The translations under genes were made by a program, and so were the position numbers. A DNA stretch of 64,000 bases from Alphaproteobacteria bacterium MarineAlpha9_Bin3 (lineage in GTDB: Bacteria; Pseudomonadota; Alphaproteobacteria; TMED109), in assembly GCA_002937655.1 (NCBI GenBank), contig PTKH01000003.1:1-64000 (forward strand). The letters are read 5' to 3'. The notes beneath the pieces are model-generated. The model ran no database searches, had not been told where the DNA came from, and saw nothing but the letters and a program-made list of their open reading frames with translations. Below, one piece after another: positions 22,725 to 32,499 of this stretch. How positions within the stretch are numbered: the first letter of the stretch is position 1; each line of letters begins with the position of its first letter.

Positions 22725-23203
22725 GAGAAATTTTTAATAATTTTATTAAATTTTTTAAAAACCTTTTTATAAACATTTTTTCTAAATTTAGTTACATTAT
22801 CTTGAATATTAGTATCTAGCTCCCATTTCCATTCTGAAAATTCAGCTTGATTATTTATATTAATATTAATTTCATCATCATTACCGTAGAAGTAAAATAG
22901 AAACCATTTCTGCATTTGGCCAATAAATTTTCCATTCCATTTACTTTTAGCTATGCTTGTAGGAAGCTCATATTTTATCCATTCATTAATACTATAAATA
23001 TTCTTTATACTTTTGATGCCAGTTTCTTCATAGGCTTCTCTAATAGCTGCTTGAAGAGCAGTTTCATCGTGATCTATTCCTCCTTGTGGAAGCTGCCACG
23101 CATCTTTAGTCTTTACATCTATTCTTTTTCCGCACCAAATTTTTTTGTCGGAATTAAATATCACAATGCCTACATTAGGCCTATATAAATTTTTATTAGG
23201 CAT
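22721..23203 (-). CDS. rppH: RNA pyrophosphohydrolase (Nudix)
   Basis: YRPNVGIVIFN, WQLPQGGIDHDETALQAAIREAYEETGI Nudix box. Confidence 0.94.
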   Translation of the reverse strand: MPNKNLYRPNVGIVIFNSDKKIWCGKRIDVKTKDAWQLPQGGIDHDETALQAAIREAYEETGIKSIKNIYSINEWIKYELPTSIAKSKWNGKFIGQMQKWFLFYFYGNDDEINININNQAEFSEWKWELDTNIQDNVTKFRKNVYKKVFKKFNKIIKNFS

Positions 23204-24500
23204 CCTTATTTTTATAAAGTGATATTCCTTCTAATAAATCCAAGGCTCTATTTAATTGATAATCTATCTTCTTTTTTTCATCACTTTGCTTAGAAATATT
23301 TTGTTTTTCTTTAATTTCATCTAAGTTTTTATTACTTTCTGTAGGATTTTCTAAATGACCTTTTAAATCACTTTCTTTTCTATTAGAAAAAGACTTAATT
23401 TCTTCTATTTTAGCTTGGTTAACTGTTATGTCTGGAGATATTCCTGTTGCTTGTATTGATTTTCCTGAAGGTGTGTAATATCTTGCAGTTGTTAAGCGCA
23501 TAGCTGAATCCCTTTGAACAGGAATTATTGTTTGGACTGATCCTTTCCCAAATGAAGTAGTACCCATTATTATGGCTCTTTTATGGTCTTGTAGTGCTCC
23601 AGCTACAATTTCTGATGCGGAGGCTGAACCTCCATTTATTAATACAACTATAGGTAATCCATTAGAAATATCACCCTTTGTTGCATTAAATTTTTGCTGG
23701 CCACTTTTTTTTCTTCCTCTCGTAGAAACTATTTCCCCTCTTTCTAAGAATGCATCCGAAACAGCCACCGCTTGGTTTAAAAGTCCTCCAGGATTATTTC
23801 TTAAGTCTAAAATTACTCCTGTAATATCATCACCTATTGCATCTGTTAATTTATTTATATTTTTTATAAGGCCTGATTCAGTTTTTTCATTAAAAGAAGT
23901 AATTCTTAAATAAGCAGCATTTCCTTCTCTCCTTGCTCTCACAGATTGAACCTTGATCTTATCTCTAACAATAACAATATCAAAAGGTTCAAGATCTCCT
24001 CTACTAATTTTAATGGTGATCTCTGTATTAACTTTACCACGCATTTTATCTACTGCGTCTCCAAGGGTCATACCATAAACAGATTCACCATCAATTTCTA
24101 TAATAAAATCACCTGCTTGGACTCCAGCTTCAAAGGCTGGTGTATCATCGATTGGTGATACAACTTTTACAAAGCCATCTTCCATTGAAACCTCAATGCC
24201 TAAACCTCCAAATTCTCCCTTAGTTTGAACTTGCATATCTTTAAAAGTATCTTCATTCATAAATGAAGAGTGTGGATCTAGTGACTGAAGCATGCCTTCA
24301 ATAGCTGCTTCAATTAATTCTTTATCACTGACTTCTTCAACATATTCTCTTCTTACTCTTTCATAAACTTCTCCAAACATATTTAGCTGTTGATAAACAT
24401 TAGTTTTCTTATCTTCAGCAATAGCCTTGAAAGAAAAGGAATGTAAAATTGCTATAGCTATAAAAATCATAGCAAGTTTTTTGAAATTTAATTTATTCAT
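23196..24500 (-). CDS. ctpA: C-terminal processing peptidase (S41, CtpA-like)
   Basis: Signal sequence, PDZ domain GLGIEVSMEDGFVKVVSPIDDTPAFEAGVQAGD, catalytic GGSASASEIVAGALQDHKRA and GKGSVQT. Confidence 0.94.
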   Translation of the reverse strand: MNKLNFKKLAMIFIAIAILHSFSFKAIAEDKKTNVYQQLNMFGEVYERVRREYVEEVSDKELIEAAIEGMLQSLDPHSSFMNEDTFKDMQVQTKGEFGGLGIEVSMEDGFVKVVSPIDDTPAFEAGVQAGDFIIEIDGESVYGMTLGDAVDKMRGKVNTEITIKISRGDLEPFDIVIVRDKIKVQSVRARREGNAAYLRITSFNEKTESGLIKNINKLTDAIGDDITGVILDLRNNPGGLLNQAVAVSDAFLERGEIVSTRGRKKSGQQKFNATKGDISNGLPIVVLINGGSASASEIVAGALQDHKRAIIMGTTSFGKGSVQTIIPVQRDSAMRLTTARYYTPSGKSIQATGISPDITVNQAKIEEIKSFSNRKESDLKGHLENPTESNKNLDEIKEKQNISKQSDEKKKIDYQLNRALDLLEGISLYKNKDA

Positions 24501-30415: not shown

Positions 30416-31645
30416 TTATCTGCAATCAAATGAACTAGAAACTGCTAAAACAGTTACATCGTCATCACCTGGAGTATTATCTCTAGCTGTTAACTCAGGA
30501 ACTACAATCATATAGCTGCCATCACTCATTTGTCTTATAGCCACATCAGCAGGACCTGAAAGTTCTTGGTTAGGAACTAGCTCTAAAGTAGTAGCTTCTT
30601 TACCAATACAATTAACATACAGTCTAGCTGGAATGTCGCCTCTAATCTGAGAATTTACCATAGTCCCTTGTGCAGTGAAATCTAATCCATCTAAGGCACC
30701 TAAATTTCCATCCATAGGGGCTGGTAAAGTTTTCATATCACTTATTGCATAAATACCACCATTTGCTGGATCAGGTGCACCTGCAACAGGTCCAACTGTA
30801 TTTACATATACCATTCCATCAATTGGTGAGACTTCTACGCCATCTGGGTTACCAGGAATAGCAAGAAACTCTGGCATTGTTGGTGCTTTTTTGCCAGAAG
30901 CCATAGCATCTAAGCTATCTACTGATATCTTCCATAATCCACCAGCGCCATCCCATGGAGGATCAAATTGAGCTCCACCAAATGCAGTATCTGCTACAAA
31001 TAAATTACCAGATTTATCAAAACCTAAAGCATTTATTAAGATAATTGGGCTTCCAGTTATTTCTTCAAAAACTGAGCCAGCACCAGTATCTATTTCACCT
31101 AAAATTTTTCCATCTACATTAAATGCTAAAAGTTTAGATCTCATTCTATTTCTATCAGTGATAGTTTTTCCATCCTGATCTACAATTGGTGCAGCACCAA
31201 CGCAAACCCATATTGTTCCAGCAGGAAACATTCCAGTAGAAACAGGGAGTACTCCCATACCTAAAGGCGAGCTGATACCAGTGATAAGTTTTTCTTCAAC
31301 CATTGTAAGTGTTCCATTACTATTTACACTTAGTTTACTAATATAACCTTCATTTTCAGTCCATGAAAATCCTGCTCCTCTATCTCCAATTTCTGCAGAA
31401 TTTGAAATAAATACAAATTTTCCATCATGACTAAATATAGCTCCTTCTGGATTATCAAAGTTACTAAGAACTTGCTTAACAACAGCTGATGTAGAATGTA
31501 CTCCAGCATGAATATCAGATTTAGGTGTATAGTCTGTATTGGCTGCTTTAGACTCATAAGATGCAAAAAATATCATTAAAGCTAATAATATAATGCCTGT
31601 GATTGTCATAGACAGTAATATTTTCTCTTTTGTTGTCATATACAT
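30416..31645 (-). CDS. Exported/anchored beta-propeller-like protein (SMP-30/NHL-type repeats), function unknown
   Basis: N-terminal hydrophobic segment ITGIILLALMIFFASYESKA; repeats such as NPEGAIFSHDGKFVFISN, LGFDKSGNLFVADTAFG, NPDGVEVSPIDGMVYVNT. Confidence 0.65.
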   Translation of the reverse strand: MYMTTKEKILLSMTITGIILLALMIFFASYESKAANTDYTPKSDIHAGVHSTSAVVKQVLSNFDNPEGAIFSHDGKFVFISNSAEIGDRGAGFSWTENEGYISKLSVNSNGTLTMVEEKLITGISSPLGMGVLPVSTGMFPAGTIWVCVGAAPIVDQDGKTITDRNRMRSKLLAFNVDGKILGEIDTGAGSVFEEITGSPIILINALGFDKSGNLFVADTAFGGAQFDPPWDGAGGLWKISVDSLDAMASGKKAPTMPEFLAIPGNPDGVEVSPIDGMVYVNTVGPVAGAPDPANGGIYAISDMKTLPAPMDGNLGALDGLDFTAQGTMVNSQIRGDIPARLYVNCIGKEATTLELVPNQELSGPADVAIRQMSDGSYMIVVPELTARDNTPGDDDVTVLAVSSSFDCR

Positions 31646-31700
31646 AAATTTTCCTTTATTTTATTCCCAACTTTAAATCTATGTACCTCTCTCTCCGTTT

Positions 31701-31724
31701 ATGAGAATGAGAATCATTCTCATT
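31701..31724. promoter_or_regulatory. Fur-box-like palindrome 1 (propeller promoter side)
   Basis: ATGAGAATGAGAATCATTCTCATT; the 19-mer GAGAATGAGAATCATTCTC matches GATAATGATAATCATTATC at 16 of 19 positions; hexamer layout GAGAAT-GAGAAT-C-ATTCTC. Confidence 0.8.
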
Positions 31725-31777: not shown

Positions 31778-31801
31778 ATGAGAATGATTATCATTCTCAT
31801 T
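31778..31801. promoter_or_regulatory. Fur-box-like palindrome 2 (peroxiredoxin/leader promoter side)
   Basis: ATGAGAATGATTATCATTCTCATT; 31778-31800 is a perfect 11-1-11 palindrome; 16 of 19 match to Fur consensus; abuts/overlaps the -35. Confidence 0.82.
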
Positions 31802-31828
31802 GACAATACCTTTAATCTTTTGTATAAA
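31800..31828 (+). promoter_or_regulatory. Near-consensus sigma70-type promoter
   Basis: TTGACA (31800-31805), 17 nt spacer, TATAAA (31823-31828). Confidence 0.75.
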
Positions 31829-31834
31829 GTATAT

Positions 31835-31937
31835 GAAGTAAGTATAAAATTAACAATTTATATGACACTTCTTAATTTTTTTTTCTAGAATGTTTATTTT
31901 GAGTACCTCCATTGTAAGCATTCTAGATTTTTTTTTA
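31835..31937 (+). ncRNA. Candidate Fur-controlled small RNA or attenuated peroxiredoxin leader
   Basis: Predicted start about 31835, hairpin 31884-31927 (14 bp incl. 2 G-U) followed by a 9-T run 31928-31936; loop holds ACCUCC. Confidence 0.4.
31884..31936 (+). terminator. Intrinsic-terminator-like hairpin plus U tract
   Basis: TCTAGAATGTTTAT (31884-31897) / GTAAGCATTCTAGA (31914-31927) then TTTTTTTTT. Confidence 0.55.
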
Positions 31938-31968
31938 TATTTTTAATTCTATTTTTTTGGGAGAAATC

Positions 31969-32499
31969 ATGCTTATTGGAAAAACAATACCTAACGATAT
32001 AATATTTCATGTAAGAATTAGAGATGAGAGTTTAGGAGGAGATAATCCATATAAATGGACTACTCATACAACTAAAGATTATTTTGCAAATAAAAGAGTA
32101 CTTATTTTTTCTTTACCAGGAGCTTTTACACCTACTTGTTCAACATATCAACTTCCTGGATTTGAAGATAATTATGAAGAAATATTGAGACAAAATATAG
32201 ATGAGATATATTGTGTTTCTGTAAATGATTCTTTTGTAATGAATAAATGGGCAATAGATCAGGGTATTAAAAAAGTCAAACTTATCGCAGATGGTTCTGC
32301 AAAACTAACTAAAGAAATGAATATGTTAGTTGCAAAAGATAACTTGGGTTTTGGAATGAGGTCATGGAGATATGCAGCTTTAATTAATGATAGTAAAGTT
32401 GAAAAAGTATGGGAAGAAGAGGGTAAAATGGATAATTGTCCTGATGACCCTTATCATCATACTAACCCAACAAATATCTTGGCTGATATTAAAATATAA
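31969..32499 (+). CDS. Peroxiredoxin (PRX5-like)
   Basis: LIFSLPGAFTPTCSTYQLPGFE catalytic Cys motif, CVSVNDSFVMNKWA, GFGMRSWRYAALIND; ATG 31969 follows GGGAG; extra Cys in C-terminal NCPDDPYH. Confidence 0.92.
   Translation: MLIGKTIPNDIIFHVRIRDESLGGDNPYKWTTHTTKDYFANKRVLIFSLPGAFTPTCSTYQLPGFEDNYEEILRQNIDEIYCVSVNDSFVMNKWAIDQGIKKVKLIADGSAKLTKEMNMLVAKDNLGFGMRSWRYAALINDSKVEKVWEEEGKMDNCPDDPYHHTNPTNILADIKI

Follow-up and report, generated by a model that had tools for sequence, protein, structure and literature searches.

Positions 31800-31936 of the window, the 64,000-nucleotide stretch of DNA analysed here, are likely to encode a Fur-repressed, trans-acting, iron-sparing small RNA of about 100 nt, designated type B, which has a sibling, type A, at a second locus. 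The evidence is computational only and there are no transcript data. The DNA itself contains the operators and promoters, two structured RNAs that are conserved and keep a fixed core in the loop, and complementary sites at the starts of iron-protein genes. Transcription, Fur binding, iron as the signal, pairing and repression are all inferred from sequence alone.

Two Fur boxes precede the peroxiredoxin gene prx (31969-32499, plus strand; Redoxin, PF08534). Fur box 1 (ATGAGAATGAGAATCATTCTCAT, 31701-31723, no strand assigned) has one mismatch to GAGAATGATNATCATTCTC and lies closer to a divergent gene (30416-31645, minus strand), whose product has no Pfam or NCBIfam match. Fur box 2 (ATGAGAATGATTATCATTCTCAT, 31778-31800, no strand assigned) has no mismatches and abuts the -35 hexamer of a sigma70-type promoter (31800-31828, plus strand), the same fusion being found at the type A locus. 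Read directly from the sequence, the hexamers are TTGACA at 31800-31805 and TATAAA at 31823-31828, separated by 17 nt. The length of this spacer is constant and its sequence varies in the type A copies and the type B copy of G005. The predicted RNA (31835-31936, plus strand) is inferred from the promoter and terminator, its start being inferred from the -10 hexamer. It begins with a 5' stem, GAAGU/ACUUC (31835-31871), which is GAAGC/GCUUC in G005, followed by a terminator hairpin (31884-31927) in which TCTAGAATGTTTAT (31884-31897) pairs with GTAAGCATTCTAGA (31914-31927) over 14 pairs, two of them G-U. The loop, UUUGAGUACCUCCAUU, contains ACCUCC, and two further pairs (U-A and G-C) narrow it to AGUACCUC, like the type A RNA. 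The loop seed, GAGUACCUCC (31901-31910), has a core, AGUACCUCC, that is constant in the type B copies and the type A copies of the genus; the G007 version is GAAUACCUCC. The U tract that follows consists of nine T (31928-31936, read directly). All of the elements claimed in the preliminary description, the fused box 2 and promoter, the 14-pair hairpin, the ACCUCC loop and the nine T, held together with their positions.

The RNA spanning 31833-31937 folds with a free energy of -25.4 kcal/mol compared with -10.7 +/- 2.8 kcal/mol for shuffled sequences (z -5.3), none of 200 shuffles being equally good. A generic promoter and terminator scan listed neither the type B promoter nor the terminator, because it required the second hexamer to end in T and did not accept loops longer than 8 nt. 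A search of this region of the window against Rfam gave no gathering-level match. Elsewhere in the window, the Rfam family Rp_sR47 matches 23500-23804 (plus strand), antisense within an S41 peptidase gene (23196-24500, minus strand), a position indicating that the family probably models coding sequence.

The reading as a Fur-regulated, RyhB-like small RNA, first proposed in the preliminary description, would have been refuted if the stem were neither conserved nor covarying in relatives. This was not the case. Three genus genomes (G000, G005 and G004) have prx, and the hairpin precedes it in each. The copies in G004 and G005 carry compensatory changes; pairs 7, 10 and 14 are changed on both sides among the copies, and the loop core is unchanged. 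One pair is broken in the G004 copy and its U tract is poor. In G021 and G011, whose prx homologs are more distant, the gene lies directly after another reading frame, and a type B-like leader is not present there. The comparison supports the small RNA reading, and expression remains a prediction.

The possibility was considered that the hairpin is a cis-acting attenuator only, limiting Fur-controlled transcription of prx, and that the short RNA has no targets. In favor of this explanation, the hairpin is a strong terminator located in the prx leader, and no separate prx promoter is apparent in G000 or G005. As noted previously, a second promoter between the hairpin and the prx ATG at 31969 is not apparent either, on inspection by eye of the 32 nt preceding the gene, so that the hairpin must also restrict read-through into prx. 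However, type A has the same fused promoter and loop, yet no gene lies downstream in the sense direction, and termination does not require that a loop be conserved across unlike stems. Attenuation alone is therefore considered unlikely. Attenuation, initially offered as an alternative to the small RNA, is probably a further effect of the hairpin that ends it. The suggested pairing of the loop CUCC with the prx ribosome binding site (GGGAG, 31959-31963) was not convincing; only four to six base pairs form, at -6.6 to -6.8 kcal/mol, and this mechanism was rejected. In G004, about 130 nt separate the hairpin from prx. This interval holds TTGACT upstream of a palindrome, TTTTAGAATGATTCTAAAA (L011, about 1400-1460), which we take to be similar to an Irr-type box, and the two could conceivably be a separate prx promoter and operator.

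When the genome was searched with the window region, more Fur-box-like sites were found. Contig C67 carries a Fur box and, after it, a minus-strand hairpin whose loop is again GAGUACCUCC; the RNA at this second locus was named type A, and the RNA of the window type B. Another Fur-box-like site, with one mismatch, lies between the gene for a cytochrome c and one whose product lacks a Pfam match (G000:C60:1266-1284, L127). The motif GAGTACCTCC occurs at 26 sites, mostly intragenic, in the seven genus genomes, and is not enriched overall (34 sites for the reversed control pattern). Seven of the 26 form the loop of a hairpin that belongs to the type A locus or to a fragment of it. A Fur box is present about 104-125 nt upstream of six of these, the seventh (L044) being a contig-edge fragment in G005. 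The loops of the small RNAs can thus be separated from chance coding matches only through their context.

A covariance model located intact type A copies in six genomes of the genus, out of seven, and a single copy in a second genus (G007). None was found in G003, an assembly that is 61% complete. Six copies have a constant order of Fur box, TTGACA, a 17-nt spacer of variable sequence and a TATAWA hexamer. The RNA folds into a 5' hairpin with the loop CUCCCAA and a 3' hairpin with the loop AGUACCUC; loop 1 (UUUCCUCCCAA) and loop 2 are both complementary to the Shine-Dalgarno sequence (anti-SD). The G007 RNA has two successive hairpins with unlike stems, and both loops are GAAUACCUCC. In the alignment of seven copies, 97.8% of the pairings at 27 paired positions are standard, and 11 of the 27 have changed on both sides. 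None of 500 shuffles was as good, and when the partners were slid, only 45-57% were paired. The alignment was fitted to the structure and the pair count therefore leans toward it, but sliding still lowers the pairing. The preliminary description had recognized a single small RNA. This view is amended, the RNA of the window being one of a pair, and the small RNA reading is further backed by this copy, which is not a leader and has the same Fur box-promoter fusion and loop.

A further possibility is that the hairpins are plain terminators behind Fur-controlled promoters and that no functional small RNA is made, type A being the terminator of the opposite znuB-DUF3299 operon. The type A hairpin does come after the DUF3299 stop codon, its U tract is modest, and both tails there fall short of a perfect U tract. 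However, the loop is fixed while the stems covary, the 5' hairpin is conserved, the promoter spacing is fixed, and at prx no gene faces the hairpin. This explanation is considered very unlikely.

No match of note was obtained in Rfam at the two type A loci scanned. A search of 85,462 genomes for the pattern Fur box-promoter-ACCTCC returned 23 stretches. Seven of them have a matching Fur box and hairpin, and all seven come from alphaproteobacterial metagenome-assembled genomes (MAGs); the other 16 look like chance. The named relatives with the arrangement are MAGs designated "Alphaproteobacteria bacterium" (including TMED109) and Candidatus Pelagibacterales SP94 and SP299.

The predicted targets of the loop include classical iron-sparing ones, in agreement with the RyhB-like reading. 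The loop complement, GGAGGUACU, is the Shine-Dalgarno sequence of bacterioferritin and of a cytochrome c, and slightly shorter matches occur at rubrerythrin and a di-iron hydroxylase. The exact complement, GGAGGTACT, has 11 sites in the same genome, without raw enrichment, and three of them sit at the ribosome binding sites of open frames, those for bacterioferritin, a cytochrome c and glyoxalase II. A search relaxed to GGAGGTA, covering 100 of its 106 sites, added rubrerythrin, a fatty-acid hydroxylase that belongs to a di-iron family, a CGFS glutaredoxin and a 2Fe-2S subunit. Acetyl-CoA synthetase, AmtB, an enoyl-CoA hydratase-like protein and an ABC binding protein were added as well. Several of the predicted targets, among them acetyl-CoA synthetase, AmtB and the ABC binding protein, are not iron proteins. 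The seed pairing energies were -16.5 kcal/mol for bacterioferritin, -15.6 for both the cytochrome c and glyoxalase II, -14.4 for rubrerythrin, -14.0 for the fatty-acid hydroxylase, -11.0 for the glutaredoxin and -10.8 for the 2Fe-2S subunit. A possible local target was also seen. The 5' leader of the divergent gene behind Fur box 1 carries GAGGUAC (31683-31689, minus strand), complementary to the loop; the motif is GAGGUAC in G000 and G005 and GAGGUAU in G004, and pairs with the loop at -9.9 to -11.9 kcal/mol. Full-length cofolding of the small RNA and its targets was uninformative, because loop-mRNA pairing is a pseudoknot and cannot be represented.

The background was evaluated with 444 genes from a 464-kb sample, not the whole genome, giving a mean of -4.5 kcal/mol and a 1% quantile of -11.7 kcal/mol. 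Bacterioferritin ranks first among them, a rank that is not independent because its stretch had been inspected before the ranking. About six of the top 20 genes encode iron, heme or Fe-S proteins on a Pfam-based reading (bacterioferritin, cytochrome c', the glutaredoxin, an iron alcohol dehydrogenase, a 4Fe-4S ferredoxin and another cytochrome c), compared with none of 20 random genes. The one-sided Fisher probability, calculated by hand, is about 0.01, or 0.02 without bacterioferritin. The classification of iron proteins was unblinded and some of the called gene starts are doubtful. Moreover, the target sites were initially chosen via the seed, which makes the enrichment partly circular, and GGAGG is present in many Shine-Dalgarno sequences, so that part of any anti-SD match is generic.

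The extension of the bacterioferritin site past the Shine-Dalgarno sequence is good in G000, G002, G003, G006 and G007, and pairing is weak in G004 (-7.5 kcal/mol) and G005 (-8.8 kcal/mol). Where a genus yielded no type A RNA, the extension is mostly missing from the bacterioferritin start region. The cytochrome c site is GGAGGT in all seven genus genomes and GGAGGTA in six. Seeds were also ranked on orthologs found by homology, taken from genomes whose site the seed had not picked; the G002 bacterioferritin found in this way pairs over GGAGGTAC. The real seed was sixth of 1024 NNNNNCCUCC seeds (ending CCUCC), outranked only by versions with G replacing A. This rank is not a formal probability, because the orthologs share ancestry.

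The RNAs might instead be general anti-SD small RNAs that are only incidentally under Fur control, their main targets being transporter and metabolic genes and not iron proteins. General anti-SD small RNAs are exemplified by the rhizobial NfeR1 and AbcR. Both type A loops are anti-SD, the ABC binding protein, AmtB and acetyl-CoA synthetase are among the predicted targets, and further CCUCC-loop RNAs exist in the genus. However, the strongest matches beyond the Shine-Dalgarno core are mostly to iron proteins, and the bacterioferritin and cytochrome c sites are largely conserved in the genus, leaving this alternative improbable. As for the additional CCUCC-loop RNAs, located around covariance-model matches, L057 and L064 (minus strand) carry UCCUCCAAAGAAC twice in tandem and L069 (minus strand) carries UUUCCUCCCAGGAA, in each case followed by strong terminators. 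No Fur box was seen immediately upstream, and these RNAs may constitute a further anti-SD family.

In the iron-sparing mechanism that we favor, Fur would leave the operator overlapping the -35 hexamer as iron falls, and both RNAs would accumulate. The terminator-hairpin loop AGUACCUCC would then pair with GGAGGUAC(U) at the ribosome binding sites of mRNAs for iron-storing and iron-using proteins, including bacterioferritin, cytochrome c, rubrerythrin and the di-iron hydroxylase, among others. Masking of the Shine-Dalgarno sequence would block translation and save iron. At the prx locus, most transcripts would stop at the hairpin and a minority would continue into prx, so that an iron-free peroxidase would be made under the same condition.

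The own genome encodes one Zur-like protein and one Fur-like protein, the latter having Fur as its best match in both NCBIfam and PDB. Its nearest solved relatives are two Fur proteins from Alphaproteobacteria, a class in which some Fur proteins sense manganese, and this counts against the iron-sparing reading. Hfq (PF17209) was not found in any of the seven genus genomes, of which only that of the window is more than 90% complete; the same search was positive in E. coli and Caulobacter.

A gene for a small basic protein faces the type A Fur box, divergent from the small RNA (L003:1549-1809, plus strand). It is conserved in seven copies including that of G007 (also at L025, L027, L028, L043, L046 and L053), and encodes 83-91 residues with a pI of 9.3-10.0 in the five cases computed. 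The protein has no Pfam or NCBIfam family match and no fold match; the structure model is of low confidence (mean pLDDT 63) and had no significant PDB match. By analogy with the FsrA/Fbp arrangement, the protein could be a helper of the small RNA, an idea and not a result.

The pair is predicted, with good support, to work like RyhB, PrrF, FsrA or IsrR without a detected sequence relative. Three properties of this functional class were evaluated. A Fur operator over the promoter is present, the 19-nt core abutting TTGACA with no mismatches at both loci, without binding data. The seed is complementary to start regions of iron-protein mRNAs. A short terminator-ended transcript is predicted by the sequence, without RNA data. 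The Fur-box promoter and the predicted length of about 100 nt, intrinsic terminator and class of iron-protein targets are shared with RyhB, PrrF and NrrF. Unlike these RNAs, the window and the two type A loci do not match an Rfam covariance model, the seed is in the terminator loop, the bacterial class is different, and Hfq, the partner of RyhB-type RNAs, was not found in the seven genus genomes.

IsrR of Staphylococcus aureus is Fur-repressed and Hfq-independent, and its C-rich motifs pair with mRNA starts in an AT-rich genome (PMC9410917). The present RNAs are predicted to resemble it in Fur repression, C-rich single-stranded motifs directed at mRNA starts, an AT-rich genome, Hfq independence and iron-protein targets. 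However, IsrR is 174 nt long and its three C-rich regions lie in loops and at a 5' end (PMC9410917), whereas the shared seed here, ACCUCC, is in the terminator loop; a sequence relation was checked via Rfam only. FsrA binds Shine-Dalgarno sequences via a C-rich motif (PMC9410917). In Bacillus subtilis, this Fur-regulated RNA with its C-rich anti-SD motif is helped by the small basic proteins FbpA, FbpB and FbpC, and here a small basic protein gene adjoins the type A Fur box, but no family or fold link was found for its product. The alpha-r14/NfeR1 and cuckoo RNAs are likewise alphaproteobacterial with anti-SD hairpin loops, and NfeR1 is Hfq-independent (PMC10746234). In alpha-r14, three hairpins carry CCUCCUCCC, and NfeR1 is under LsrB and NtrC (PMC10746234), whereas UUUCCUCCC and UACCUCC occur here in two hairpins under Fur boxes, the repeated CCUCCUCCC loop motif being absent. 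RusT of Caulobacter is also an alphaproteobacterial small RNA induced by iron starvation (PMC11005374), but it is NtrYX-controlled, has no Fur site found, depends on Hfq and has many outer-membrane transporter targets (PMC11005374).

A bolder reading, no more than a possibility, is a complete Hfq-free iron-sparing module in a lineage of marine Alphaproteobacteria. An anti-SD small RNA and, in the opposite direction, a small basic RNA-chaperone-like protein would be driven from a single Fur box, and the second small RNA copy would be an attenuated prx leader, rubrerythrin being swapped for peroxiredoxin when iron is scarce.

To our knowledge, no Fur-controlled iron-sparing RNA is established in this bacterial class. 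Nothing on Fur-regulated small RNAs in SAR11 was found in the literature searched, although absence there is not proof of novelty. Iron limits the productivity of plankton across vast regions of the ocean. In Pelagibacter, the change in the proteome under iron limitation is unexplained by changes in mRNA, implying post-transcriptional control (PMC2864753). The pair of Fur-box small RNAs is a concrete candidate for post-transcriptional iron control in a marine alphaproteobacterial lineage with small genomes. If the reading is true, these organisms would have an independently evolved iron-saving system with two small RNAs switched on when iron is scarce, and anti-SD iron sparing would have arisen one more time, apparently independently, in an AT-rich genome.
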